A stretch of DNA of 64,000 nt from Lepidurus packardi (Eukaryota; Arthropoda; Branchiopoda; Notostraca; Triopsidae): assembly GCA_023053545.1 (NCBI GenBank), contig JAKZAN010000002.1:852375-916374 (forward strand), read 5' to 3'. The position numbers and the translations under genes are program-made. The notes under the pieces were generated by a model. The model worked only from the letters and a program-made list of their open reading frames with translations. It did not search any database and was not told the DNA's origin. Shown here piece after piece: positions 2,652 through 63,520 of this stretch. The stretch's first letter is position 1. The number at the start of each line of letters is the position of its first letter.

Positions 2652-3125
2652 CAAACTCACTGAACCCCAAACACTAGCATCTGTATCAGAATCGACACGC
2701 GACCCAACTCCGCACGAATTAGTAGCCATACCGTGCGATCAGTGGCTCTTGAGAACGAATGACGTGTTCTTAGTTGTATGGAGCGTACTCATCTAATCAC
2801 CTGCGGGGAGATTAAATAAGTGGGAGTTCGTTATCGATACACGGGGTTAGTTTAAGGCAGATCATATTAACCTGCTGTCATTTCATGTTCATAGCCAATG
2901 ATCTGCTTATGTTCAGCAGCAAAAGCTTAATGGTGGTTAAAGTCGGTTTCTTGCTTCGCAACATACTCGTTCAAGCACTTGGCCACCACATCACACAAAG
3001 CTCGGCCTTCGCCCGGCGAACCCAATTTTGGACCAAGAACGGGAAGCCGCCGTTAACACGATATCCATATAACGGACGAACGCCTAGAACGCTAAATCGA
3101 GAGACGTACCCTTATCGAGAGACGC

Positions 3126-3360
3126 AAGTGCTTCATGATAGGCGTAACATCCGAGAAGACGATGTGGTCCTCATCGTCGGCCCGAATTCGCAAACGGAAG
3201 ATTGGCCGCTAGGCCGCGTAATCAAGCCATTACCGGGGCCGGACGGAGTAGTACGCGCCGCGCGGGTGAAGACCGCTACCGGCGAGTAGTAAGACCTGTT
3301 GCTAAGCTATGCCTTCTAGAAGAAGCCGACTAGGAGGATGAACTACGGCGATTGGCTGAA
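3126..3360 (+). pseudogene. BEL/Pao polyprotein C-terminus (DUF5641-like) relic
   Basis: The plus strand encodes RRNIREDDVVLIVGPNS and then WPLGRVIKPLPGPDGVVRAA. This is almost the same as the C-terminal end of the intact BEL/Pao polyprotein at 24300-24450 on the other strand. The frame ends at a TAG at 3286-3288, where the intact element has a leucine codon. After that stop the same frame still reads recognisable sequence (PVAKLCLLEEAD), so this is a nonsense mutation. Upstream of about 3126 the match is lost. It lies in the opposite orientation to the RT scrap at 2226-2470, so the two are separate insertions or a rearranged copy. Confidence 0.75.
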
Positions 3361-3707: not shown

Positions 3708-3990
3708 GAATTTTAAGCGATAGATTGACCTACTCGAACGATTTGCTCGAGCTGGAAGGTAATTTGAAGTCCGTGGGGCCTGAAAAATGACAATTATAGA
3801 AACAAAGTTAAACTTAACGAATAATTCACCTTTCTCCTAATGGAAACCCTCCCCGCCTGTACTTTCCTTGCGGAAATAGTAGTCCGTCGTCTTCCAACGT
3901 CACGTACGACAATTTGTTTCCAATTCCTGTAATAAAAAGAGAGAAAAATACTAGTCACTTTATGGAAAGCAAACTTGTCGACTAGCTTAC
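3615..3990 (-). other. Predicted downstream exons and introns of the array locus (unit 1)
   Basis: On the minus strand, donor AG|GTAAGC at 3991/3990 and acceptor TTTTTATTACAG|G define a 64-nt intron (3927-3990). Exon B is 3830-3926. A second intron, 3780-3829 (50 nt), has donor AAG|GTGAAT and acceptor TTTTCAG. Exon C runs from 3779 to a TGA at 3615-3617. Joined, the frame stays open from the N tail through both junctions and gives a basic, serine- and arginine-rich tail (QAGRVSIRRK at the end of exon B). No domain is recognised. The same splice signals recur in unit 10. This is a prediction from sequence; the locus could be a host gene or an older element. Confidence 0.45.
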
Positions 3991-5295
3991 CTGGTCTTTA
4001 TAGACGTGGATGGAAACGACATCGGTAGCTCTTGTCGCTGTCGTGCTTGTTCTCGCCAATGCCGTCTTGACTTATCCACGCGCTTATGGCACTGCGGAAC
4101 AGGGAATCTCTTCTTTGCCACGAAATATTGGAACACAAAGAAGCCAAGTGCATTTCCCAAATACCATTGAATCCACTCATAAGAATCCCTAACTGTTGGA
4201 TAAGGGTTCGTCTCAGTTTCCAGAGGTAATGGAGCTTGAAGAAATAACTCCTTCTCACCGTTGACGATATATTGCCTCTCGAGCCCGGCTTGAGTTCTTA
4301 GAGCGTAAGCCATTAGTGCCGCATTTACATGTATGTTCGAGAGAGAGAACTCTCCCGGAATCCTAGCATTCTTTGATCTTTCAGATCCAAGATACAGGGC
4401 CACCATATGGGACCACATGTGGAGAGCAGGATTAGCTGTAGCTGAGTAGGGCGACTTGTTAGGAATACCCATGTCCGACATATAAGGCATATATGAATCG
4501 GACACATCTATTTCGTTCCCAGGGGCCATAATGTTATCCACCTCATTTGCCATAGGCGCTGTTGCCACCCAACTCTGGATTTCTGTCAAACTCAAGGCAG
4601 TGATGTTCTTCAGATGGACAATGGTGGAAATTATCACACAATCCTTGTACCGGGAAATCACTGTACCATACCGCACCGCGGCTTCCTTCGCCTTTGGGAA
4701 TTTAGAGTAAAACATGTCAAATCCCGCAACAATCTTAAGGTACCCAGGATCATGGATCCATCCTGTATAACTGGCAGTCATCAGGTGGAAGGTCTTAGGA
4801 GCCCCATGTGTGTGACAAAGAACCACCGCCCTATCCTTCACTTTGGCAGCGTAATCAGGATAACTCGACGCCAGAACAATCCTTCCTACGGCCAAAAGTG
4901 CCAGAACCATCCAGTAATCATCTTCTGGTGTGGCATCTACGCCTTGACATTGTACGGAGGAGGCCTGGTCTCAACTAATGCTTCACCTGCACTACCTATT
5001 TTCACATTAAAAGACGTCCAATCCTGATCTAATGTCTGCCTCCACTGTGATCCAATGGCGTATAAATACGACTTAACCATGCCCGTCTCCATATTAGCCC
5101 CACTTGTCAACGCCGCTTTGATGGATTTTCTAAGACCATCTATTGTTTCTGAATTAGGTGGTTTCCAGATTTCCAATGATGGTTTTTTGGATCATTCAGA
5201 AAGAAATCCCGGGGATAAGACGGCTTGATCTCTACAGACACCTCCAACATGTCCACAACTCTTCCTGTTTTCTTTCGTATGAGTGAGTTCGCCAT
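3987..5295 (-). pseudogene. N (EVE): Rhabdovirus-like nucleoprotein, endogenous copy 1 (two frameshifts, distinct C-terminus)
   Basis: Nucleoproteins of rhabdoviruses coat the viral RNA. The long frame 3987-4910 carries the family's core, including GFDMFYSKFPKAKEAAVRYG and SPYSATANPALHMW. The ATG equivalent to the intact copies is at 5295, but two one-base deletions interrupt the N-terminal part: a T-run with six instead of seven T near 5188, and GCC for GTCC near 4940. Unlike copies 2-9, the frame crosses the LTR-like end into flank DNA and reads about 20 extra residues to a GTAAGC splice donor at 3990. An intron of 64 nt (3927-3990) with a pyrimidine-rich acceptor would join it in frame to the next exon. 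Virus family is inferred from conserved motifs only. Confidence 0.8.
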
Positions 5296-5358
5296 TTTAC
5301 AGATTTCAATAATCTTATTGATATCTTATTGAAATCCCTTTCGGCTTCGTCCGGAACA
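4048..5358 (-). mobile_element. Solo-LTR-like segment carrying the N gene (unit 1), with GTGCT target duplication
   Basis: The segment starts TGTTCTCGCC and ends CGGAACA on the plus strand, so it has TG...CA ends and a 5-bp inverted repeat TGTTC/GAACA. It is flanked by direct repeats GTGCT at 4043-4047 and 5359-5363. Unit 10 has the same flanks joined through a single GTGCT, which is the empty site. A 5-bp duplication with TG...CA ends is the signature of integrase-mediated LTR retroelement insertion. The segment is 1311 bp and about 1250 bp of it is N coding sequence. On the sense (minus) strand only 63 bp precede the N ATG, and the N frame runs out through the CA end. Equivalent segments: 5700-7010, 7352-8662, 9004-10315, 10657-11968, 12310-13620, 13962-15274, 15616-16926, 17268-18580. 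Confidence 0.8.
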
Positions 5359-5662
5359 GTGCTGAAGAACCCGTATTGCCACTAGCCAAAATAAACGGCT
5401 CCCTCGTTGAGGCAAGTAAGCCGGGAATTTTAAGCGATAGACTGACCTACTCGAACGATTTGCTCGAGCTGGAAGGTAATTTGAAGTCCGTGGGGCCTGG
5501 AAAATGACAATTATAGAAACAAAGTTAAACTTAACGAATAATTCACCTTTCTCCTAATGGAAACCCTCCCCGCCTGTACGTCTTCTTGTACGGCGGCTGC
5601 CGCTACGGCTTCACGTCTTTGTGACATGCTGATACCACAACCAAATTATCCAAAATTATGAC

Positions 5663-6947
5663 TTACGGTTTCGATGAGTTCCCGGTCGATGCACCATAAT
5701 GTTCTCGCCAATGCCGTCTTGACTTATCCACGCGCTTATGACACTGCGGAACAGGGAATCTCTTCTTTGCCACGAAATATTGGAACACAAAGAAGCCAAG
5801 TGCATTTCCCAAATACCATTGAATCCACTCATAAGAATCCCTAACTGTTGGATAAGGGTTCGTCTCAGTTTCCAGAGGTAATGGAGCTTGAAGAAATAAC
5901 TCCTTCTCACCGTTGACGATATATTGCCTCTCGAGCCCGGCTTGAGTTCTTAGAGCGTAAGCCATTAGTGCCGCATTTACATGTATGTTCGAGAGAGAGA
6001 ACTCTCCCGGAATCCTAGCATTCTTTGATCTTTCAGATCCAAGATACAGGGCCACCATATGGGACCACATGTGGAGAGCAGGATTAGCTGTAGCTGAGTA
6101 GGGCGACTTGTTAGGAATACCCATGTCCGACATATAAGGCATATATGAATCGGACACATCTATTTCGTTCCCAGGGGCCATAATGTTATCCACCTCATTT
6201 GCCATAGGCGCTGTTGCCACCCAACTCTGGATTTCTGTCAAACTCAAGGCAGTGATGTTCTTCAGATGGACAATGGTGGAAATTATCACACAATCCTTGT
6301 ACCGGGAAATCACTGTACCATACCGCACCGCGGCTTCCTTCGCCTTTGGGAATTTAGAGTAAAACATGTCAAATCCCGCAACAATCTTAAGGTACCCAGG
6401 ATCATGGATCCATCCTGTATAACTGGCAGTCATCAGGTGGAAGGTCTTAGGAGCCCCATGTGTGTGACAAAGAACCACCGCCCTATCCTTCACTTTGGCA
6501 GCGTAATCAGGATAACTCGACGCCAGAACAATCCTTCCTACGGCCAAAAGTGCCAGAACCATCCAGTAATCATCTTCTGGTGTGGCATCTACGCCTTGAC
6601 ATTGTACGGAGGAGGCCTGGTCTCAACTAATGCTTCACCTGCACTACCTATTTTCACATTAAAAGACGTCCAATCCTGATCTAATGTCTGCCTCCACTGT
6701 GATCCAATGGCGTATAAATACGACTTAACCATGCCCGTCTCCATATTAGCCCCACTTGTCAACGCCGCTTTGATGGATTTTCTAAGACCATCTATTGTTT
6801 CTGAATTAGGTGGTTTCCAGATTTCCAATGATGGTTTTTTGGATCATTCAGAAAGAAATCCCGGGGATAAGACGGCTTGATCTCTACAGACACCTCCAAC
6901 ATGTCCACAACTCTTCCTGTTTTCTTTCGTATGAGTGAGTTCGCCAT
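5663..6947 (-). pseudogene. N (EVE): Rhabdovirus-like nucleoprotein, endogenous copy 2 (two frameshifts)
   Basis: This has the same core as copy 1, with the last 299 codons open (5663-6562). It shares with copy 1 both one-base deletions in the N-terminal third, so the first 130 or so residues are out of frame. The frame leaves the LTR-like segment at 5700 and ends HYGASTGNSSKP*, residues read from the primer-binding site and leader rather than from virus. This C-terminal tail is common to copies 2-9. Confidence 0.8.
5679..5696 (-). promoter_or_regulatory. tRNA primer-binding site after the N-bearing LTR (unit 2; repeated in units 3-9)
   Basis: On the minus strand the LTR-like end GAACA is followed by TTA and then TGGTGCATCGACCGGGAA. 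These 18 nt are identical to the primer-binding site that follows the left LTR of Gypsy-1 at 35301-35318. They are complementary to a tRNA 3' end with CCA; the acceptor pairing suggests a tRNA-Gly-like primer (inference). The same 18 nt lie three bases from the LTR-like end in units 3-9. Unit 1 lacks it. A splice-donor-like ACC|GTAAGT follows at 5667/5666, and an ATG with a short open frame (MSQRREAVAAAAVQEDVQ) lies further downstream. That is compatible with a retroelement leader and the start of gag, truncated by a deletion into the flank at GTACAGGCGG. Confidence 0.75.
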
Positions 6948-7314
6948 TTTACAGATTTCAATAATCTTATTGATATCTTATTGAAATCCCTTTCGGCTTC
7001 GTCCGGAACAGTGCTGAAGAACCCGTATTGCCACTAGCCAAAATAAACGGCTCCCTCGTTGAGGCAAGTAAGCCGGGAATTTTAAGCGATAGACTGACCT
7101 ACTCGAACGATTTGCTCGAGCTGGAAGGTAATTTGAAGTCCGTGGGGCCTGGAAAATGACAATTATAGAAACAAAGTTAAACTTAACGAATAATTCACCT
7201 TTCTCCTAATGGAAACCCTCCCCGCCTGTACGTCTTCTTGTACGGCGGCTGCCGCTACGGCTTCACGTCTTTGTGACATGCTGATACCACAACCAAATTA
7301 TCCAAAATTATGAC

Positions 7315-8599
7315 TTACGGTTTCGATGAGTTCCCGGTCGATGCACCATAATGTTCTCGCCAATGCCGTCTTGACTTATCCACGCGCTTATGACACTGCG
7401 GAACAGGGAATCTCTTCTTTGCCACGAAATATTGGAACACAAAGAAGCCAAGTGCATTTCCCAAATACCATTGAATCCACTCATAAGAATCCCTAACTGT
7501 TGGATAAGGGTTCGTCTCAGTTTCCAGAGGTAATGGAGCTTGAAGAAATAACTCCTTCTCACCGTTGACGATATATTGCCTCTCGAGCCCGGCTTGAGTT
7601 CTTAGAGCGTAAGCCATTAGTGCCGCATTTACATGTATGTTCGAGAGAGAGAACTCTCCCGGAATCCTAGCATTCTTTGATCTTTCAGATCCAAGATACA
7701 GGGTCACCATATGGGACCACATGTGGAGAGCAGGATTGGCTGTAGCTGAGTAGGGCGACTTGTTAGGAATACCCATGTCCGACATATAAGGCATATATGA
7801 ATCGGACACATCTATTTCGTTCCCAGGGGCCATAATGTTATCCACCTCATTTGCCATAGGCGCTGTTGCCACCCAACTCTGGATTTCTGTCAAACTCAAG
7901 GCAGTGATGTTCTTCAGATGGACAATGGTGGAAATTATCACACAATCCTCGTACCGGGAAATCACTGTACCATACCGCACCGCGGCTTCCTTCGCCTTTG
8001 GGAATTTAGAGTAAAACATGTCAAATCCCGCAACAATCTTAAGGTACCCAGGATCATGGATCCATCCTGTATAACTGGCAGTCATCAGGTGGAAGGTCTT
8101 AGGAGCCCCATGTGTGTGACAAAGAACCACCGCCCTATCCTTTACTTTGGCAGCGTAATCAGGATAACTCGACGCCAGAACAATCCTTCCTACGGCCAAA
8201 AGTGCCAGAACCATCCAGTAATCATCTTCTGGTGTGGCATCTACGCCTTGACATTGTACGGAGGAGGCCTGGTCTCAACTAATGCTTCACCTGCACTACC
8301 TATTTTCACATTAAAAGACGTCCAATCCTGATCTAATGTCTGCCTCCACTGTGATCCAATGGCGTATAAATACGACTTAACCATGCCCGTCTCCATATTA
8401 GCCCCACTTGTCAACGCCGCTTTGATGGATTTTCTAAGACCATCTATTGTTTCTGAATTAGGTGGTTTCCAGATTTCCAATGATGGTTTTTTGGATCATT
8501 CAGAAAGAAATCCCGGGGATAAGACGGCTTGATCTCTACAGACACCTCCAACATGTCCACAACTCTTCCTGTTTTCTTTCGTATGAGTGAGTTCGCCAT
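7315..8599 (-). pseudogene. N (EVE): Rhabdovirus-like nucleoprotein, endogenous copy 3 (two frameshifts)
   Basis: The open part is 7315-8214 (299 codons). It carries the same two N-terminal deletions as copies 1 and 2, and also substitutions K to E (SRYEDC) and A to T (MVTLYL) that it shares with copy 4. These shared changes mark copies 3 and 4 as neighbours by descent. Confidence 0.8.
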
Positions 8600-8966
8600 T
8601 TTACAGATTTCAATAATCTTATTGATATCTTATTGAAATCCCTTTCGGCTTCGTCCGGAACAGTGCTGAAGAACCCGTATTGCCACTAGCCAAAATAAAC
8701 GGCTCCCTCGTTGAGGCAAGTAAGCCGGGAATTTTAAGCGATAGACTGACCTACTCGAACGATTTGCTCGAGCTGGAAGGTAATTTGAAGTCCGTGGGGC
8801 CTGGAAAATGACAATTATAGAAACAAAGTTAAACTTAACGAATAATTCACCTTTCTCCTAATGGAAACCCTCCCCGCCTGTACGTCTTCTTGTACGGCGG
8901 CTGCCGCTACGGCTTCACGTCTTTGTGACATGCTGATACCACAACCAAATTATCCAAAATTATGAC

Positions 8967-10252
8967 TTACGGTTTCGATGAGTTCCCGGTCGATGCACCA
9001 TAATATTCTCGCCAATGCCGTCTTGACTTATCCACGCGCTTATGACACTGCGGAACAGGGAATCTCTTCTTTGCCACGAAATATTGGAACACAAAGAAGC
9101 CAAGTGCATTTCCCAAATACCATTGAATCCACTCATAAGAATCCCTAACTGTTGGATAAGGGTTCGTCTCAGTTTCCAGAGGTAATGGAGCTTGAAGAAA
9201 TAACTCCTTCTCACCGTTGACGATATATTGCCTCTCGAGCCCGGCTTGAGTTCTTAGAGCGTAAGCCATTAGTGCCGCATTTACATGTATGTTCGAGAGA
9301 GAGAACTCTCCCGGAATCCTAGCATTCTTTGATCTTTCAGATCCAAGATACAGGGTCACCATATGGGACCACATGTGGAGAGCAGGATTGGCTGTAGCTG
9401 AGTAGGGCGACTTGTTAGGAATACCCATGTCCGACATATAAGGCATATATGAATCGGACACATCTATTTCGTTCCCAGGGGCCATAATGTTATCCACCTC
9501 ATTTGCCATAGGCGCTGTTGCCACCCAACTCTGGATTTCTGTCAAACTCAAGGCAGTGATGTTCTTCAGATGGACAATGGTGGAAATTATCACACAATCC
9601 TCGTACCGGGAAATCACTGTACCATACCGCACCGCGGCTTCCTTCGCCTTTGGGAATTTAGAGTAAAACATGTCAAATCCCGCAACAATCTTAAGGTACC
9701 CAGGATCATGGATCCATCCTGTATAACTGGCAGTCATCAGGTGGAAGGTCTTAGGAGCCCCATGTGTGTGACAAAGAACCACCGCCCTATCCTTTACTTT
9801 GGCAGCGTAATCAGGATAACTCGACGCCAGAACAATCCTTCCTACGGCCAAAAGTGCCAGAACCATCCAGTAATCATCTTCTGGTGTGGCATCTACGTCC
9901 TTGACATTGTACGGAGGAGGCCTGGTCTCAACTAATGCTTCACCTGCACTACCTATTTTCACATTAAAAGACGTCCAATCCTGATCTAATGTCTGCCTCC
10001 ACTGTGATCCAATGGCGTATAAATACGACTTAACCATGCCCGTCTCCATATTAGCCCCACTTGTCAACGCCGCTTTGATGGATTTTCTAAGACCATCTAT
10101 TGTTTCTGAATTAGGTGGTTTCCAGATTTCCAATGATGGTTTTTTTGGATCATTCAGAAAGAAATCCCGGGATAAGACGGCTTGATCTGTACAGACACCT
10201 CCAACATGTCCACAACTCTTCCTGTTTTCTTTCGTATGAGTGAGTTCGCCAT
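8967..10252 (-). pseudogene. N (EVE): Rhabdovirus-like nucleoprotein, endogenous copy 4 (one frameshift near the start)
   Basis: An open frame of 388 codons, 8967-10133, covers all but about the first 40 residues. The seven-T run and GTCC are intact here. A different one-base loss (CCCGGGA for CCCGGGGA near 10165) breaks the frame between the ATG at 10252 and the body. The LTR-like end reads TATTC instead of TGTTC at 9004-9008, a G-to-A change that would spoil the terminal TG. It shares SRYEDC and MVTLYL with copy 3. Confidence 0.8.
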
Positions 10253-10619
10253 TTTACAGATTTCAATAATCTTATTGATATCTTATTGAAATCCCTTTCG
10301 GCTTCGTCCGGAACAGTGCTGAAGAACCCGTATTGCCACTAGCCAAAATAAACGGCTCCCTCGTTGAGGCAAGTAAGCCGGGAATTTTAAGCGATAGACT
10401 GACCTACTCGAACGATTTGCTCGAGCTGGAAGGTAATTTGAAGTCCGTGGGGCCTGGAAAATGACAATTATAGAAACAAAGTTAAACTTAACGAATAATT
10501 CACCTTTCTCCTAATGGAAACCCTCCCCGCCTGTACGTCTTCTTGTACGGCGGCTGCCGCTACGGCTTCACGTCTTTGTGACATGCTGATACCACAACCA
10601 AATTATCCAAAATTATGAC

Positions 10620-11905
10620 TTACGGTTTCGATGAGTTCCCGGTCGATGCACCATAATGTTCTCGCCAATGCCGTCTTGACTTATCCACGCGCTTATGACA
10701 CTGCGGAACAGGGAATCTCTTCTTTGCCACGAAATATTGGAACACAAAGAAGCCAAGTGCATTTCCCAAATACCATTGAATCCACTCATAAGAATCCCTA
10801 ACTGTTGGATAAGGGTTCGTCTCAGTTTCCAGAGGTAATGGAGCTTGAAGAAATAACTCCTTCTCACCGTTGACGATATATTGCCTCTCGAGCCCGGCTT
10901 GAGTTCTTAGAGCGTAAGCCATTAGTGCCGCATTTACATGTATGTTCGAGAGAGAGAACTCTCCCGGAATCCTAGCATTCTTTGATCTTTCAGATCCAAG
11001 ATACAGGGCCACCATATGGGACCACATGTGGAGAGCAGGATTAGCTGTAGCTGAGTAGGGCGACTTGTTAGGAATACCCATGTCCGACATATAAGGCATA
11101 TATGAATCGGACACATCTATTTCGTTCCCAGGGGCCATAATGTTATCCACCTCATTTGCCATAGGCGCTGTTGCCACCCAACTCTGGATTTCTGTCAAAC
11201 TCAAGGCAGTGATGTTCTTCAGATGGACAATGGTGGAAATTATCACACAATCCTCGTACCGGGAAATCACTGTACCATACCGCACCGCGGCTTCCTTCGC
11301 CTTTGGGAATTTAGAGTAAAACATGTCAAATCCCGCAACAATCTTAAGGTACCCAGGATCATGGATCCATCCTGTATAACTGGCAGTCATCAGGTGGAAG
11401 GTCTTAGGAGCCCCATGTGTGTGACAAAGAACCACCGCCCTATCCTTTACTTTGGCAGCGTAATCAGGATAACTCGACGCCAGAACAATCCTTCCTACGG
11501 CCAAAAGTGCCAGAACCATCCAGTAATCATCTTCTGGTGTGGCATCTACGTCCTTGACATTGTACGGAGGAGGCCTGGTCTCAACTAATGCTTCACCTGC
11601 ACTACCTATTTTCACATTAAAAGACGTCCAATCCTGATCTAATATCTGCCTCCACTGTGATCCAATGGCGTATAAATACGACTTAACCATGCCCGTCTCC
11701 ATATTAGCCCCACTTGTCAACGCCGCTTTGATGGATTTTCTAAGACCATCTATTGTTTCTGAATTAGGTGGTTTCCAGATTTCCAATGATGGTTTTTTTG
11801 GATCATTCAGAAAGAAATCCCGGGATAAGACGGCTTGATCTGTACAGACACCTCCAACATGTCCACAACTCTTCCTGTTTTCTTTCGTATGAGTGAGTTC
11901 GCCAT
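10620..11905 (-). pseudogene. N (EVE): Rhabdovirus-like nucleoprotein, endogenous copy 5 (one frameshift near the start)
   Basis: An open frame of 388 codons, 10620-11786, with the same CCCGGGA deletion as copy 4. It keeps E in SRYEDC but has A in MVALYL, and a private T-to-I change (WRQILDQDW). Its mixture of copy-4 and copy-6 markers fits unequal exchange or gene conversion. Confidence 0.8.
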
Positions 11906-12272
11906 TTTACAGATTTCAATAATCTTATTGATATCTTATTGAAATCCCTTTCGGCTTCGTCCGGAACAGTGCTGAAGAACCCGTATTGCCACTAGCCAAA
12001 ATAAACGGCTCCCTCGTTGAGGCAAGTAAGCCGGGAATTTTAAGCGATAGACTGACCTACTCGAACGATTTGCTCGAGCTGGAAGGTAATTTGAAGTCCG
12101 TGGGGCCTGGAAAATGACAATTATAGAAACAAAGTTAAACTTAACGAATAATTCACCTTTCTCCTAATGGAAACCCTCCCCGCCTGTACGTCTTCTTGTA
12201 CGGCGGCTGCCGCTACGGCTTCACGTCTTTGTGACATGCTGATACCACAACCAAATTATCCAAAATTATGAC

Positions 12273-13557
12273 TTACGGTTTCGATGAGTTCCCGGTCGAT
12301 GCACCATAATGTTCTCGCCAATGCCGTCTTGACTTATCCACGCGCTTATGACACTGCGGAACAGGGAATCTCTTCTTTGCCACGAAATATTGGAACACAA
12401 AGAAGCCAAGTGCATTTCCCAAATACCATTGAATCCACTCATAAGAATCCCTAACTGTTGGATAAGGGTTCGTCTCAGTTTCCAGAGGTAATGGAGCTTG
12501 AAGAAATAACTCCTTCTCACCGTTGACGATATATTGCCTCTCGAGCCCGGCTTGAGTTCTTAGAGCGTAAGCCATTAGTGCCGCATTTACATGTATGTTC
12601 GAGAGAGAGAACTCTCCCGGAATCCTAGCATTCTTTGATCTTTCAGATCCAAGATACAGGGCCACCATATGGGACCACATGTGGAGAGCAGGATTAGCTG
12701 TAGCTGAGTAGGGCGACTTGTTAGGAATACCCATGTCCGACATATAAGGCATATATGAATCGGACACATCTATTTCGTTCCCAGGGGCCATAATGTTATC
12801 CACCTCATTTGCCATAGGCGCTGTTGCCACCCAACTCTGGATTTCTGTCAAACCCAAGGCAGTGATGTTCTTCAGATGGACAATGGTGGAAATTATCACA
12901 CAATCCTTGTACCGGGAAATCACTGTACCATACCGCACCGCGGCTTCCTTCGCCTTTGGGAATTTAGAGTAAAACATGTCAAATCCCGCAACAATCTTAA
13001 GGTACCCAGGATCATGGATCCATCCTGTATAACTGGCAGTCATCAGGTGGAAGGTCTTAGGAGCCCCATGTGTGTGACAAAGAACCACCGCCCTATCCTT
13101 CACTTTGGCAGCGTAATCAGGATAACTCGACGCCAGAACAATCCTTCCTACGGCCAAAAGTGCCAGAACCATCCAGTAATCATCTTCTGGTGTGGCATCT
13201 ACGCCTTGACATTGTACGGAGAAGGCCTGGTCTCAACTAATGCTTCACCTGCACTACCTATTTTCACATTAAAAGACGTCCAATCCTGATCTAATGTCTG
13301 CCTCCACTGTGATCCAATGGCGTATAAATACGACTTAACCATGCCCGTCTCCATATTAGCCCCACTTGTCAACGCCGCTTTGATGGATTTTCTAAGACCA
13401 TCTATTGTTTCTGAATTAGGTGGTTTCCAGATTTCCAATGATGGTTTTTTGGATCATTCAGAAAGAAATCCCGGGGATAAGACGGCTTGATCTCTACAGA
13501 CACCTCCAACATGTCCACAACTCTTCCTGTTTTCTTTCGTATGAGTGAGTTCGCCAT
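12273..13557 (-). pseudogene. N (EVE): Rhabdovirus-like nucleoprotein, endogenous copy 6 (two frameshifts)
   Basis: The open part is 12273-13172 (299 codons). It has the same two N-terminal deletions as copies 1-3. Marker changes are S to G (ITALGLTEIQ) and P to S in the region out of frame (ETRPSPYNV). Both are found only here and in copy 8. Confidence 0.8.
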
Positions 13558-13924
13558 TTTACAGATTTCAATAATCTTATTGATATCTTATTGAAATCCC
13601 TTTCGGCTTCGTCCGGAACAGTGCTGAAGAACCCGTATTGCCACTAGCCAAAATAAACGGCTCCCTCGTTGAGGCAAGTAAGCCGGGAATTTTAAGCGAT
13701 AGACTGACCTACTCGAACGATTTGCTCGAGCTGGAAGGTAATTTGAAGTCCGTGGGGCCTGGAAAATGACAATTATAGAAACAAAGTTAAACTTAACGAA
13801 TAATTCACCTTTCTCCTAATGCAAACCCTCCCCGCCTGTACGTCTTCTTGTACGGCGGCTGCCGCTACGGCTTCACGTCTTTGTGACATGCTGATACCAC
13901 AACCAAATTATCCAAAATTATGAC

Positions 13925-15211
13925 TTACGGTTTCGATGAGTTCCCGGTCGATGCACCATAATGTTCTCGCCAATGCCGTCTTGACTTATCCACGCGCTTA
14001 TGACACTGCGGAACAGGGAATCTCTTCTTTGCCACGAAATATTGGAACACAAAGAAGCCAAGTGCATTTCCCAAATACCATTGAATCCACTCATAAGAAT
14101 CCCTAACTGTTGGATAAGGGTTCGTCTCAGTTTCCAGAGGTAATGGAGCTTGAAGAAATAACTCCTTCTCACCGTTGACGATATATTGCCTCTCGAGCCC
14201 GGCTTGAGTTCTTAGAGCGTAAGCCATTAGTGCCGCATTTACATGTATGTTCGAGAGAGAGAACTCTCCCGGAATCCTCGCATTCTTTGATCTTTCAGAT
14301 CCAAGATACAGGGCCACCATATGGGACCACATGTGGAGAGCAGGATTAGCTGTAGCTGAGTAGGGCGACTTGTTAGGAATACCCATGTCCGACATATAAG
14401 GCATATATGAATCGGACACATCTATTTCGTTCCCAGGGGCCATAATGTTATCCACCTCATTTGCCATAGGCGCTGTTGCCACCCAACTCTGGATTTCTGT
14501 CAAACTCAAGGCAGTGATGTTCTTCAGATGGACAATGGTGGAAATTATCACACAATCCTTGTACCGGGAAATCACTGTACCATACCGCACCGCGGCTTCC
14601 TTCGCCTTTGGGAATTTAGAGTAAAACATGTCAAATCCCGCAACAATCTTAAGGTACCCAGGATCATGGATCCATCCTGTATAACTGGCAGTCATCAGGT
14701 GGAAGGTCTTAGGAGCCCCATGTGTGTGACAAAGAACCACCGCCCTATCCTTTACTTTGGCAGCGTAATCAGGATAACTCGACGCCAGAACAATCCTTCC
14801 TACGGCCAAAAGTGCCAGAACCATCCAGTAATCATCTTCTGGTGTGGCATTTACGTCCTTGACATTGTACGGAGGAGGCCTGGTCTCAACTAATGCTTCA
14901 CCTGCACTACCTATTTTCACATTAAAAGACGTCCAATCCTGATCTAATGTCTGCCTCCACTGTGATCCAATGGCGTATAAATACGACTTAACCATGCCCG
15001 TCTCCATATTAGCCCCACTTGTCAACGCCGCTTTGATGGATTTTCTAAGACCATCTATTGTTTCTGAATTAGGTGGTTTCCAGATTTCCAATGATGGTTT
15101 TTTTGGATCATTCAGAAAGAAATCCCGGGGATAAGACGGCTTGATCTCTACAGACACCTCCAACATGTCCACAACTCTTCCTGTTTTCTTTCGTATGAGT
15201 GAGTTCGCCAT
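13925..15211 (-). CDS. N (EVE): Rhabdovirus-like nucleoprotein, endogenous copy 7, intact 428-residue frame
   Basis: This is one of two copies with an uninterrupted frame from the ATG at 15211, MANSLIRKKTGRVVDM, to the stop at 13925. About 416 residues lie inside the LTR-like segment, which is close to the usual rhabdovirus N length of 420-430. The last 12 come from the primer-binding site and leader. Visible family features are the TASYTGWIHDPGYLKIVAGF block near residue 174, DMFYSKFP near 194 and SPYSATANPALHMW near 282. The N of a live virus binds genomic RNA; whether this copy is expressed or does so is unknown. Markers: RMRGFR-type change in another frame (CCTCGCATT), shared only with copy 9. 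An alternative is a nucleoprotein of a related unclassified mononegavirus. Confidence 0.8.
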   Translation of the reverse strand: MANSLIRKKTGRVVDMLEVSVEIKPSYPRDFFLNDPKKPSLEIWKPPNSETIDGLRKSIKAALTSGANMETGMVKSYLYAIGSQWRQTLDQDWTSFNVKIGSAGEALVETRPPPYNVKDVNATPEDDYWMVLALLAVGRIVLASSYPDYAAKVKDRAVVLCHTHGAPKTFHLMTASYTGWIHDPGYLKIVAGFDMFYSKFPKAKEAAVRYGTVISRYKDCVIISTIVHLKNITALSLTEIQSWVATAPMANEVDNIMAPGNEIDVSDSYMPYMSDMGIPNKSPYSATANPALHMWSHMVALYLGSERSKNARIPGEFSLSNIHVNAALMAYALRTQAGLERQYIVNGEKELFLQAPLPLETETNPYPTVRDSYEWIQWYLGNALGFFVFQYFVAKKRFPVPQCHKRVDKSRRHWREHYGASTGNSSKP

Positions 15212-15578
15212 TTTACAGATTTCAATAATCTTATTGATGTCTTATTGAAATCCCTTCCGGCTTCGTCCGGAACAGTGCTGAAGAACCCGTATTGCCACTA
15301 GCCAAAATAAACGGCTCCCTCGTTGAGGCAAGTAAGCCGGGAATTTTAAGCGATAGATTGACCTACTCGAACGATTTGCTCGAGCTGGAAGGTAATTTGA
15401 AGTCCGTGGGGCCTGAAAAATGGCAATTATAGAAACAAAGTTAAACTTAACGAATAATTCACCTTTCTCCTAATGGAAACCCTCCCCGCCTGTACGTCTT
15501 CTTGTACGGCGGCTGCCGCTACGGCTTCACGTCTTTGTGACATGCTGATACCACAACCAAATTATCCAAAATTATGAC

Positions 15579-16863
15579 TTACGGTTTCGATGAGTTCCCG
15601 GTCGATGCACCATAATGTTCTCGCCAATGCCGTCTTGACTTATCCACGCGCTTATGACACTGCGGAACAGGGAATCTCTTCTTTGCCACGAAATATTGGA
15701 ACACAAAGAAGCCAAGTGCATTTCCCAAATACCATTGAATCCACTCATAAGAATCCCTAACTGTTGGATAAGGGTTCGTCTCAGTTTCCAGAGGTAATGG
15801 AGCTTGAAGAAATAACTCCTTCTCACCGTTGACGATATATTGCCTCTCGAGCCCGGCTTGAGTTCTTAGAGCGTAAGCCATTAGTGCCGCATTTACATGT
15901 ATGTTCGAGAGAGAGAACTCTCCCGGAATCCTAGCATTCTTTGATCTTTCAGATCCAAGATACAGGGCCACCATATGGGACCACATGTGGAGAGCAGGAT
16001 TAGCTGTAGCTGAGTAGGGCGACTTGTTAGGAATACCCATGTCCGACATATAAGGCATATATGAATCGGACACATCTATTTCGTTCCCAGGGGCCATAAT
16101 GTTATCCACCTCATTTGCCATAGGCGCTGTTGCCACCCAACTCTGGATTTCTGTCAAACCCAAGGCAGTGATGTTCTTCAGATGGACAATGGTGGAAATT
16201 ATCACACAATCCTTGTACCGGGAAATCACTGTACCATACCGCACCGCGGCTTCCTTCGCCTTTGGGAATTTAGAGTAAAACATGTCAAATCCCGCAACAA
16301 TCTTAAGGTACCCAGGATCATGGATCCATCCTGTATAACTGGCAGTCATCAGGTGGAAGGTCTTAGGAGCCCCATGTGTGTGACAAAGAACCACCGCCCT
16401 ATCCTTCACTTTGGCAGCGTAATCAGGATAACTCGACGCCAGAACAATCCTTCCTACGGCCAAAAGTGCCAGAACCATCCAGTAATCATCTTCTGGTGTG
16501 GCATCTACGCCTTGACATTGTACGGAGAAGGCCTGGTCTCAACTAATGCTTCACCTGCACTACCTATTTTCACATTAAAAGACGTCCAATCCTGATCTAA
16601 TGTCTGCCTCCACTGTGATCCAATGGCGTATAAATACGACTTAACCATGCCCGTCTCCATATTAGCCCCACTTGTCAACGCCGCTTTGATGGATTTTCTA
16701 AGACCATCTATTGTTTCTGAATTAGGTGGTTTCCAGATTTCCAATGATGGTTTTTTGGATCATTCAGAAAGAAATCCCGGGGATAAGACGGCTTGATCTC
16801 TACAGACACCTCCAACATGTCCACAACTCTTCCTGTTTTCTTTCGTATGAGTGAGTTCGCCAT
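15579..16863 (-). pseudogene. N (EVE): Rhabdovirus-like nucleoprotein, endogenous copy 8 (two frameshifts)
   Basis: The open part is 15579-16478. It carries the same two deletions and the same private markers as copy 6 (ITALGLTEIQ, ETRPSPYNV). Together with copy 7/9 sharing, this shows that units 6-7 and 8-9 are a duplicated pair about 3306 bp apart. Confidence 0.8.
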
Positions 16864-17230
16864 TTTACAGATTTCAATAATCTTATTGATATCTTATTGA
16901 AATCCCTTTCGGCTTCGTCCGGAACAGTGCTGAAGAACCCGTATTGCCACTAGCCAAAATAAACGGCTCCCTCGTTGAGGCAAGTAAGCCGGGAATTTTA
17001 AGCGATAGACTGACCTACTCGAACGATTTGCTCGAGCTGGAAGGTAATTTGAAGTCCGTGGGGCCTGGAAAATGACAATTATAGAAACAAAGTTAAACTT
17101 AACGAATAATTCACCTTTCTCCTAATGCAAACCCTCCCCGCCTGTACGTCTTCTTGTACGGCGGCTGCCGCTACGGCTTCACGTCTTTGTGACATGCTGA
17201 TACCACAACCAAATTATCCAAAATTATGAC

Positions 17231-18517
17231 TTACGGTTTCGATGAGTTCCCGGTCGATGCACCATAATGTTCTCGCCAATGCCGTCTTGACTTATCCACG
17301 CGCTTATGACACTGCGGAACAGGGAATCTCTTCTTTGCCACGAAATATTGGAACACAAAGAAGCCAAGTGCATTTCCCAAATACCATTGAATCCACTCAT
17401 AAGAATCCCTAACTGTTGGATAAGGGTTCGTCTCAGTTTCCAGAGGTAATGGAGCTTGAAGAAATAACTCCTTCTCACCGTTGACGATATATTGCCTCTC
17501 GAGCCCGGCTTGAGTTCTTAGAGCGTAAGCCATTAGTGCCGCATTTACATGTATGTTCGAGAGAGAGAACTCTCCCGGAATCCTCGCATTCTTTGATCTT
17601 TCAGATCCAAGATACAGGGCCACCATATGGGACCACATGTGGAGAGCAGGATTAGCTGTAGCTGAGTAGGGCGACTTGTTAGGAATACCCATGTCCGACA
17701 TATAAGGCATATATGAATCGGACACATCTATTTCGTTCCCAGGGGCCATAATGTTATCCACCTCATTTGCCATAGGCGCTGTTGCCACCCAACTCTGGAT
17801 TTCTGTCAAACTCAAGGCAGTGATGTTCTTCAGATGGACAATGGTGGAAATTATCACACAATCCTTGTACCGGGAAATCACTGTACCATACCGCACCGCG
17901 GCTTCCTTCGCCTTTGGGAATTTAGAGTAAAACATGTCAAATCCCGCAACAATCTTAAGGTACCCAGGATCATGGATCCATCCTGTATAACTGGCAGTCA
18001 TCAGGTGGAAGGTCTTAGGAGCCCCATGTGTGTGACAAAGAACCACCGCCCTATCCTTTACTTTGGCAGCGTAATCAGGATAACTCGACGCCAGAACAAT
18101 CCTTCCTACGGCCAAAAGTGCCAGAACCATCCAGTAATCATCTTCTGGTGTGGCATTTACGTCCTTGACATTGTACGGAGGAGGCCTGGTCTCAACTAAT
18201 GCTTCACCTGCACTACCTATTTTCACATTAAAAGACGTCCAATCCTGATCTAATGTCTGCCTCCACTGTGATCCAATGGCGTATAAATACGACTTAACCA
18301 TGCCCGTCTCCATATTAGCCCCACTTGTCAACGCCGCTTTGATGGATTTTCTAAGACCATCTATTGTTTCTGAATTAGGTGGTTTCCAGATTTCCAATGA
18401 TGGTTTTTTTGGATCATTCAGAAAGAAATCCCGGGGATAAGACGGCTTGATCTCTACAGACATCTCCAACATGTCCACAACTCTTCCTGTTTTCTTTCGT
18501 ATGAGTGAGTTCGCCAT
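17231..18517 (-). CDS. N (EVE): Rhabdovirus-like nucleoprotein, endogenous copy 9, intact 428-residue frame
   Basis: The frame is uninterrupted from the ATG at 18517 to the stop at 17231. It differs from copy 7 by one residue that I can see (DMLEMSVEI instead of DMLEVSVEI). It has the same N core motifs and the same 12-residue tail read from the primer-binding site. It is the most upstream copy on the minus strand. Only 63 bp of LTR-like sequence and then flank DNA precede the ATG (..AAATCTGTAAAATGG), and I see no convincing TATA box there. Its intact frame, with copy 7, contrasts with the seven broken neighbours. That may mean selection or simply recent origin. Confidence 0.8.
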   Translation of the reverse strand: MANSLIRKKTGRVVDMLEMSVEIKPSYPRDFFLNDPKKPSLEIWKPPNSETIDGLRKSIKAALTSGANMETGMVKSYLYAIGSQWRQTLDQDWTSFNVKIGSAGEALVETRPPPYNVKDVNATPEDDYWMVLALLAVGRIVLASSYPDYAAKVKDRAVVLCHTHGAPKTFHLMTASYTGWIHDPGYLKIVAGFDMFYSKFPKAKEAAVRYGTVISRYKDCVIISTIVHLKNITALSLTEIQSWVATAPMANEVDNIMAPGNEIDVSDSYMPYMSDMGIPNKSPYSATANPALHMWSHMVALYLGSERSKNARIPGEFSLSNIHVNAALMAYALRTQAGLERQYIVNGEKELFLQAPLPLETETNPYPTVRDSYEWIQWYLGNALGFFVFQYFVAKKRFPVPQCHKRVDKSRRHWREHYGASTGNSSKP

Positions 18518-18646
18518 TTTACAGATTTCAATAATCTTATTGATGTCTTATTGAAATCCCTTCCGGCTTCGTCCGGAACAGTGCTGAAGAACCCGTATTG
18601 CCACTAGCCAAAATAAACGGCTCCCTCGTTGAGGCAAGTAAGCCGG

Positions 18647-19051
18647 GAATTTTAAGCGATAGATTGACCTACTCGAACGATTTGCTCGAGCTGGAAGGTA
18701 ATTTGAAGTCCGTGGGGCCTGAAAAATGGCAATTATAGAAACAAAGTTAAACTTAACGAATAATTCACCTTTCTCCTAATGGAAACCCTCCCCGCCTGTC
18801 CTTTCCTTGCGGAAGTAGTAGTCCGTCGTCTTCCAACGTCACGTACGACAATTTGTTTCCAATTCCTGTAATAAAAAGAGAGAAAAATATTAGTCACTTT
18901 ATGGAAAGCAAACTTGTCGACTAGCTTACCTGGTCTTTATAGACGTGGATGGAAACGACATCGGTAGCTCTTGTCGCTGTCGTGCTGAAGAACCCGTATT
19001 GCCACTAGCCAAAATAAACGGCTCCCTCGTTGAGGCAAGTAAGCCGGGAAT
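18647..19051 (-). repeat. Unit 10: empty (pre-insertion) version of the array unit
   Basis: This shortened unit keeps the flank exons and introns but has no N segment. At 18980-18990 the sequence TCGTGCTGAAG joins the two flanks through one GTGCT, where unit 1 has two copies around the N-bearing LTR. On the minus strand introns are predicted at 18866-18929 (64 nt) and 18719-18768 (50 nt). The frame reading through them is open upstream to about 19112 and includes FILASGNTGSSARQRQELPM. The protein is not recognised. Loss of an LTR would leave a solo LTR, not a clean single GTGCT, so this looks like the original site. Confidence 0.75.
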
Positions 19052-63329: not shown

Positions 63330-63520
63330 GGCGCTTATTATTTTACTCCAAAAGGGTAACAAAAAATGGCTCTCGAGCCGGCATGGATTATTTTACTCCA
63401 AAAGGATTACAAAAAATGGCTCTCGAGCCGGCATGGATTAATTAACTCCAAAAGGGTAACGAAAAATGGCTCTCGAGCCGGCATGGGTTGTTTTACTCCA
63501 AATGTTATACGAAAAATGCC
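63330..63520. repeat. 50-bp tandem repeat, about 3.5 copies
   Basis: TCTCGAGCCGGCATGG recurs at 63371, 63421 and 63471, with TTTTACTCCAAAAGGGTAAC between. The last copy is degenerate. Confidence 0.85.

Follow-up and report, generated by a model that had tools for sequence, protein, structure and literature searches.

A stretch of 64,000 nucleotides from the notostracan Lepidurus packardi (assembly GCA_023053545.1, contig JAKZAN010000002.1, here C2, positions 852375-916374; hereafter the window) contains a tandem array of nine units in which a rhabdoviral nucleoprotein (N) gene lies inside a real long terminal repeat (LTR) of the BEL/Pao type, in the sense of the element. The arrangement is most plausibly explained by a BEL/Pao retrotransposon that took up a rhabdoviral N mRNA within its LTR during reverse transcription, a reading to which we assign a probability of roughly 0.65; the template switch itself we infer from the order of the sequence parts. 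Genome searches covered 108.6 Mb in 344 contigs.

The array occupies window positions 4048-18580, with its sense on the minus strand and start-to-start distances of 1652-1654 bp (Table 1). The N-bearing segment measured 1311 bp in units 1, 2, 3, 6, and 8; units 4 and 5 have 1312 bp, and units 7 and 9 have 1313 bp. Read in element sense, units 2-9 each consist of the N segment, the triplet TTA, an 18-nt primer-binding site (PBS), 100 bp of leader, and approximately 220 bp of target sequence, termed X, which terminates in AGCAC immediately ahead of the following N segment. In all eight of these units, AGCAC (= GTGCT) stood upstream of the N segment and TTA plus TGGTGCATCGACCGGGAA downstream. The segments started with TGTTCC in nine of nine cases and ended with GAACA in eight; the TGTTC/GAACA termini described in the initial annotation of this DNA are thus general for the starts and fail for the end of unit 4, which reads GAATA. 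Among the nine units, 18 of 1313 columns were variable. Units 6 and 8 were exactly identical and units 7 and 9 differed at one column, as expected if a two-unit block had been duplicated.

Table 1. Features of the N-LTR array in the window (positions count from the first letter of the window).
Feature	Position	Strand
GTGCT target duplication at the U5 (LTR 3') end of unit 1	4043..4047	-
Unit 1 N-bearing LTR (1311 bp) in solo-LTR context, with the target duplication at either end; U5 part with one difference unique to this unit	4048..5358	-
GTGCT target duplication at the U3 (LTR 5') end of unit 1	5359..5363	-
Unit 2 spacer: X fused to leader, terminating in a GTGCT target copy	5359..5578	-
Unit 2 TTA + PBS + leader, 121 nt	5579..5699	-
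Unit 2 PBS, complementary to the tRNA-Gly(GCC) 3' end; preceded by TTA (5697-5699)	5679..5696	-
Unit 2 N-bearing LTR	5700..7010	-
Unit 2 U5 end: final 102 bp of the BEL/Pao LTR, common to L031	5700..5801	-
Unit 2 foreign insert, 1182 bp, rhabdoviral N, frame broken	5802..6983	-
Unit 2 U3 end: initial 27 bp of the BEL/Pao LTR, identical in L031, L032, L033, L035	6984..7010	-
Unit 3 N-bearing LTR	7352..8662	-
Unit 4 N-bearing LTR, end GAATA	9004..10315	-
Unit 5 N-bearing LTR	10657..11968	-
Unit 6 N-bearing LTR	12310..13620	-
Unit 7 N-bearing LTR	13962..15274	-
Unit 7 N frame, open for 428 codons from ATG; final 45 residues from U5, PBS, and leader	13925..15211	-
Unit 8 N-bearing LTR	15616..16926	-
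Unit 9 N-bearing LTR	17268..18580	-
Unit 9 N frame, 428 open codons from ATG	17231..18517	-
Single GTGCT, empty target copy beside the array	18982..18986	-

The LTR was assigned by comparison with two elements of the parent family found elsewhere in the genome, neither of which carries N. Element L031 has two 506-bp LTRs (99.2% alike) and the target duplication GTGTC, and element L032 has two 507-bp LTRs (98.6% alike) and the duplication ATTGC. The internal part of L031 is BEL/Pao, with Pfam matches to Peptidase_A17 (2.3e-52), DUF5641 (1.2e-34), and DUF1759 (1.1e-9), in addition to RVT_1 and Integrase_H2C2 matches under the Pfam cut-offs. The N segments keep the first 27 bp of this LTR (U3 end), which were identical among six LTRs compared and matched at 26 of 27 positions in units 7 and 9, and its last 102 bp (U5 end), with one private difference in unit 1 and one at the penultimate base of unit 4. 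In place of LTR positions 28-404 (377 bp), the segments have 1182 bp (two more in units 7 and 9), giving 27 + 1182 + 102 = 1311 bp. Over the 223 positions of U5, TTA, PBS, and leader, which were compared with L031 in four of the eight PBS-bearing units, one mismatch was found in units 2, 7, and 9 and two in unit 4. Outside the array, the LTR end was present at no fewer than 17 places with 84-100% identity (among the 40 of 95 candidates that were scored). In 11 of 13 related places (L018-L030; exceptions L019 and L023), the U3 end lay approximately 506-527 bp from the LTR end, and all 13 matched the N frame from about residue 378 onward only, i.e. in its LTR-derived tail. Ends shared by L031, L032, L033, and L035 rule out a chance likeness to LTR termini. 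By eye, about 13 nt at the U3-N join resembled a satellite that lies next to the L033 LTR, a likeness set aside as low-complexity. In the parent LTR, TATATAG at position 82 and AATAAA at position 99 both fall within the replaced part, so the chimera is probably devoid of its own promoter and R region; loss of the promoter would account for the lack of other N-LTR copies.

The insert is derived from a rhabdovirus, as seen from homology over most of the protein. It matched PF00945 with an E value of 4.3e-80 and solved nucleocapsid structures with a best E value of 6.2e-61; structure entry 2gic is the N of vesicular stomatitis virus (VSV). The closest of six protein matches was P0001, encoded on a 10.9-kb contig (50% identity over 84%), followed by Cocal virus N (35%). 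A scan of Viral_contigs with N yielded one stretch that fitted a pattern and encoded no relative. The alignment with P0001 ended at residue 393 of the 400 residues queried (from a frame of 438) and at residue 377 of 413 in P0001, and the shared 102-bp LTR end begins with the third base of N codon 393. As the likeness to the viral protein ends at the very point at which the LTR takes up again, N was evidently cut at its 3' side by the LTR junction; the frame continues past it, with 45 residues encoded by U5, PBS, and leader. In two of the nine units (7 and 9), all 428 codons from the ATG are open; a stop follows after 32 codons in units 4 and 5 and after 51 in units 1, 2, 3, 6, and 8. The 11 ungapped variable sites of the viral part comprised 8 replacement and 3 synonymous differences; this ratio and the two open frames out of nine give no sign of constraint, and purifying selection on N was rejected. 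An ordinary retrocopy of the long interspersed nuclear element type was likewise rejected, since the joins between N and LTR show neither a poly(A) tail nor a target duplication. Elsewhere on C2, two pieces of a mononegavirus L polymerase (PF00946) were observed at 10941881-10942855 and 10949544-10950503; for both, the open frame is listed as 1044 codons, and one has a TAG inside the match.

In the parent elements as in units 2-9, the PBS begins 3 nt past the LTR and is the 18-nt complement of tRNA-Gly(GCC). Without its first three bases it is complementary to TTCCCGGTCGATGCA, a sequence with 138 genomic occurrences, among them the eight PBSs of the array and those of other elements; the reversed control sequence gave none. 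The CCA of tRNAs is added after transcription. In the single stretch examined for genes (L066, 311 bases), two copies of TTCCCGGTCGATGCA lie at the 3' ends of two tRNA-Gly gcc genes called by ARAGORN, one ending on the called tRNA end and the other one base short of it.

Unit 1 is flanked by GTGCT on both sides, and two empty sites carry a single GTGCT each, one in the window beside the array and the other in a paralogue on contig C5 (L038). Intact LTR ends, the GTGCT duplication, and the empty sites together argue for an integrase-like insertion with a 5-bp duplication like that of the parent family. The initial annotation had proposed a rhabdovirus-like N inside an LTR, a 5-bp GTGCT duplication around unit 1, and a tRNA-type 18-nt PBS three bases after units 2-9, and these four proposals are borne out by the viral matches, the shared 27- and 102-bp ends, the empty sites, and the tRNA-Gly(GCC) match, respectively. 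Near the C5 paralogue (L038 5943-6043), the U5 end and PBS start of the same LTR family were seen joined to what, by eye, resembles antisense integrase sequence, a fragment that may be the product of another switch or of autointegration.

No N-LTR was found outside the array in genome-wide protein, nucleotide, and PF00945 searches. Of the 17 matches from the PF00945 scan, the array accounts for 14, made up of nine main ones and five pieces of the N terminus; one further match is on contig C3 and two are on C6. The protein search with N returned 35 (37 of 37 candidates scored), including a fragment on C1 and the LTR-tail matches. A mobile N-LTR family was therefore rejected, and the confinement of the N-LTR to the array points to a one-off chimeric insertion that was later amplified. 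The initial annotation had suggested looking for complete gag-pol elements with two such LTRs and duplications of their own; L031 and L032 are elements of this kind in the parent, N-free form, and none with N was detected. It had also held that N segments confined to the array, together with a lack of other genomic copies flanked by gag-pol or by independent target duplications, would speak for a one-off insertion over a true LTR. The first of these was observed; as to the second, gag-pol elements with the same LTR ends do exist, without N. A degenerate N close to that of the array (59-70% identity in pieces) lies on C6 (L037 ~5613-6541), in a region that is about 96% duplicated on C1 (L039 ~4828-5016), the C1 copy being without most of N.

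Reverse transcription begins at the PBS, and U5 is copied first. In the order of steps that we propose, tRNA-Gly-primed minus-strand DNA would have copied the 102 nt of U5, after which the enzyme would have switched from U5 to an internal position of the N mRNA and proceeded toward the mRNA 5' end. Near this end, the first strand perhaps folded back on itself over about 11 nt; extension of the fold-back would end in AAATC, which could pair with GATTT in U3. Synthesis would then have rejoined the element RNA at U3 position 27 and continued through the polypurine tract, resulting in a minus strand of the order PBS-U5-N-U3-polypurine tract in which the detour replaces the normal first-strand transfer. 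Plus-strand synthesis would put N into both LTRs of the finished cDNA, and integrase could still act on the intact LTR ends; with promoter and R region probably lost, the element would be unable to spread further. A later deletion from the leader into X may have taken out gag-pol together with the 3' LTR and some of X. In unit 2, the spacer that was read, the leader end ...GAAGACG continues as X (TACAGG...) with an overlap of at most about one base. Unequal exchange between X repeats would have grown the array to nine units and left a solo-type N-LTR as unit 1; X was already repeated, as seen from the empty copy beside unit 9, so such exchange could build the array.

A switch from U5 onto the N mRNA with re-entry in U3 would explain in one step the sense orientation of N, its abutment on U5 and PBS, the retention of both LTR ends, and the loss of the middle. 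The first-strand switch proposed in the initial annotation is thus compatible with the orientation and the abutment. N stands before the PBS in eight units and before the target duplication in unit 1, as would be expected if both LTRs had carried it. The U3-N join holds a perfect inverted repeat of 11 bp (GATTTCAATAA/TTATTGAAATC) that extends across U3 and insert; shuffling the intervening 36 nt 20000 times produced such a repeat 9 times. The join also has a direct repeat of 9 nt, which arose in 232 of 20000 shuffles. Folded as a single strand, unit 1 has a z of -3.5, and the GATTT at the U3 join is compatible with switching at a microsimilarity.

A further N-like frame in an LTR element on contig C3 suggests a second capture. 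The frame (L036 4885-6219, minus strand; L036 = C3:2828000-2837999) has 438 open codons, is 41% identical to the N of the array, and stands in sense orientation with a gag-like frame on one side and the final 369 bp of a different, high-copy LTR family on the other. The gag-like frame gave no Pfam match, has a zinc-knuckle-like end by eye, and recurs in 11 further matches that cover 441 or more of its 460 residues with 90-99% identity. The 928 nt past it matched 13 other places at 94-96%, 12 of which stop exactly at position 928. A 66-bp repeat ahead of the C3 N start, present at 18 other places as well, ends exactly with AAACAGATATC. In the parts of the literature available, AACAG is given as the mRNA start in VSV and in the N gene of one salmon-louse rhabdovirus, and TAAGAA for the other louse virus (PMC8843114, PMC4234470). 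Since the start motif at C3 belongs to a host repeat, it may mark a switch point with homology or may be merely the repeat's own sequence. The 3' LTR of the C3 element is truncated inside, which undermines its reading as a clean reverse-transcription product, and its 5' LTR adjoins repetitive sequence of a different origin. In a tree of nine rows, the C3 N fell outside the N of the array, P0001, and the C6 N (100/98 for the four-row set and 87/89 for the inner fork, which was drawn open), with the C6 N covering only 25% of the columns. This position argues for another virus lineage and a separate event. Beside the C3 N, two frames matching baculovirus F protein were noted (L036 1616-3676, minus strand), one of them just under the Pfam cut-off, and an identical 50-bp tandem unit occurs beside this locus (L036 255-554) and at window positions 63337-63502.

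Several observations weigh against capture of N during reverse transcription as outlined. The jump from U5 into N lies inside the N message and not at its tail, and microhomology at this join is measurable only with the sequence of the donor virus. The two N 5' ends are alike only weakly (AGATATC; AGACATC in units 7 and 9), and a shared 7-mer arose in 1752 of 20000 shuffles. The target duplication is uninformative on whether N was acquired before or after integration. No provirus with N in both LTRs and gag-pol between them was found in the assembly, and the suggestion of the initial annotation that N would have been copied into both LTRs did not gain direct support. Moreover, an N-LTR that crossed over with an ordinary LTR in their common 102 bp could yield unit 1, in which case N in both LTRs would be unnecessary. 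Finally, fold-backs and short templated insertions are also made by DNA end joining, and comparable marks can be left by polymerase-theta repair.

In the strongest competing explanation, an N cDNA was end-joined, possibly in the polymerase theta manner, into an already integrated BEL/Pao LTR with deletion of 377 bp, unit 1 arising by LTR crossover. The inverted and direct repeats at the U3-N join resemble templated end-joining insertions, and an N-LTR seen at one locus only is what such an event would leave behind. However, N would have had to land within a 506-bp LTR, in sense and with both termini retained, an extra crossover within 102 bp would be required for unit 1, and the further N that this genome holds within an LTR element hints at reverse transcription as a recurrent route. 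We regard the DNA-level event as unlikely, at perhaps a third of the weight given to capture by reverse transcriptase. A different order of steps during reverse transcription, e.g. switching in the plus strand or in late cDNA, with N in only one original LTR, would fit the sequence data in every respect but the double context of N. Less probable still, this order is disfavoured by the abutment of N on U5 and PBS, the part that minus-strand synthesis copies first, and by the presence of N in PBS-side and duplication-side contexts alike. High-identity tandem arrays are easily misassembled, yet an assembly artefact or chance similarity to LTR ends is highly improbable: 18 variable columns tell the units apart (although units 6 and 8 are identical), the array sits on a 13.5-Mb contig, and the 27- and 102-bp LTR matches are exact or near-exact.

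A more specific version of the preferred reading, uptake of the N mRNA during reverse transcription, receives even odds from us: that the ancestral insertion was a complete BEL/Pao provirus with N at the same place in each of its LTRs, that one round of reverse transcription, with first-strand transfer via the viral mRNA, had produced it, and that LTR reverse transcriptases of this lineage caught N messages more than once.

Further observations concern other sequences. Just left of the array, at window positions 2816-3289, lies the end of another BEL/Pao-type pol (DUF5641). Among the 120 of 2432 integrase matches listed, the best with a species name reached about 60% (Trichuris muris) and 52% (Daphnia magna). 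For a mitochondrial-like COX1 piece, the named matches included arthropods (Penaeus monodon, 90% over 90% of the query; flies, 86-87%), in keeping with an arthropod and perhaps a crustacean host. In contigs C43, C52, and C214, COX1-family frames are free of stops, in contrast to the TGA-containing mitochondrial-type copies; these contigs are perhaps bacterial.

How genes of RNA viruses that lack a reverse transcriptase reach chromosomes has often been argued from the proximity of retrotransposons. Here, the sequence shows both ends of the insert, the PBS and a tRNA gene that fits it, as well as the target duplication and sites that lack the insertion, so that an order of switches can be proposed base by base. 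The array appears as an unusually clear fossil of the entry of an RNA-virus gene into animal DNA, and it points to a route that could place a foreign gene in both LTRs within one cycle.

Capture of viral genes by LTR elements is already known from the sources cited here, the accessible parts of which put no viral gene inside an LTR. In the open-licence literature, as far as its texts were available, no report of a non-retroviral gene in place of an LTR interior was found, which does not prove its absence from print. Switching between LTR-element and RNA-virus RNA has been discussed (PMC8166107, PMC5497376), and LTR elements are enriched near viral integrations in mosquitoes (PMC5497376). In AeBunya1 of Aedes aegypti, a viral integration lies within a full-length Pao-Bel element, as here inside a BEL/Pao element; the available part of its description gives no junctions and does not put it in an LTR (PMC5497376). 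In the retroposition of host mRNAs mediated by LTR elements, reverse transcriptase switches by microsimilarity and the mRNA enters the emerging cDNA (PMC5408686). The switching between LTR-element RNA and mRNA would be common to both cases, whereas in L. packardi the donor message is viral and the LTR interior is replaced; the accessible part of that review names no LTR location. Chimeric cDNAs of lymphocytic choriomeningitis virus and intracisternal A particle elements arise, as proposed here, by copy choice involving LTR-element and RNA-virus templates and are then integrated, some of them without target duplication (PMC8166107); unlike these, the N-LTR has kept its LTR ends and a 5-bp duplication, with the foreign part between the U3 and U5 ends. 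The Anakin elements of mosquitoes are BEL/Pao elements with a chuvirus glycoprotein, present in many copies, 13 of them complete (PMC7642597). As in Anakin, a gene of a negative-sense, non-retroviral RNA virus was taken up by a BEL/Pao element; in contrast to the glycoprotein of Anakin, which lies between the LTRs of a multicopy element, N replaces the LTR interior and was found at a single locus.

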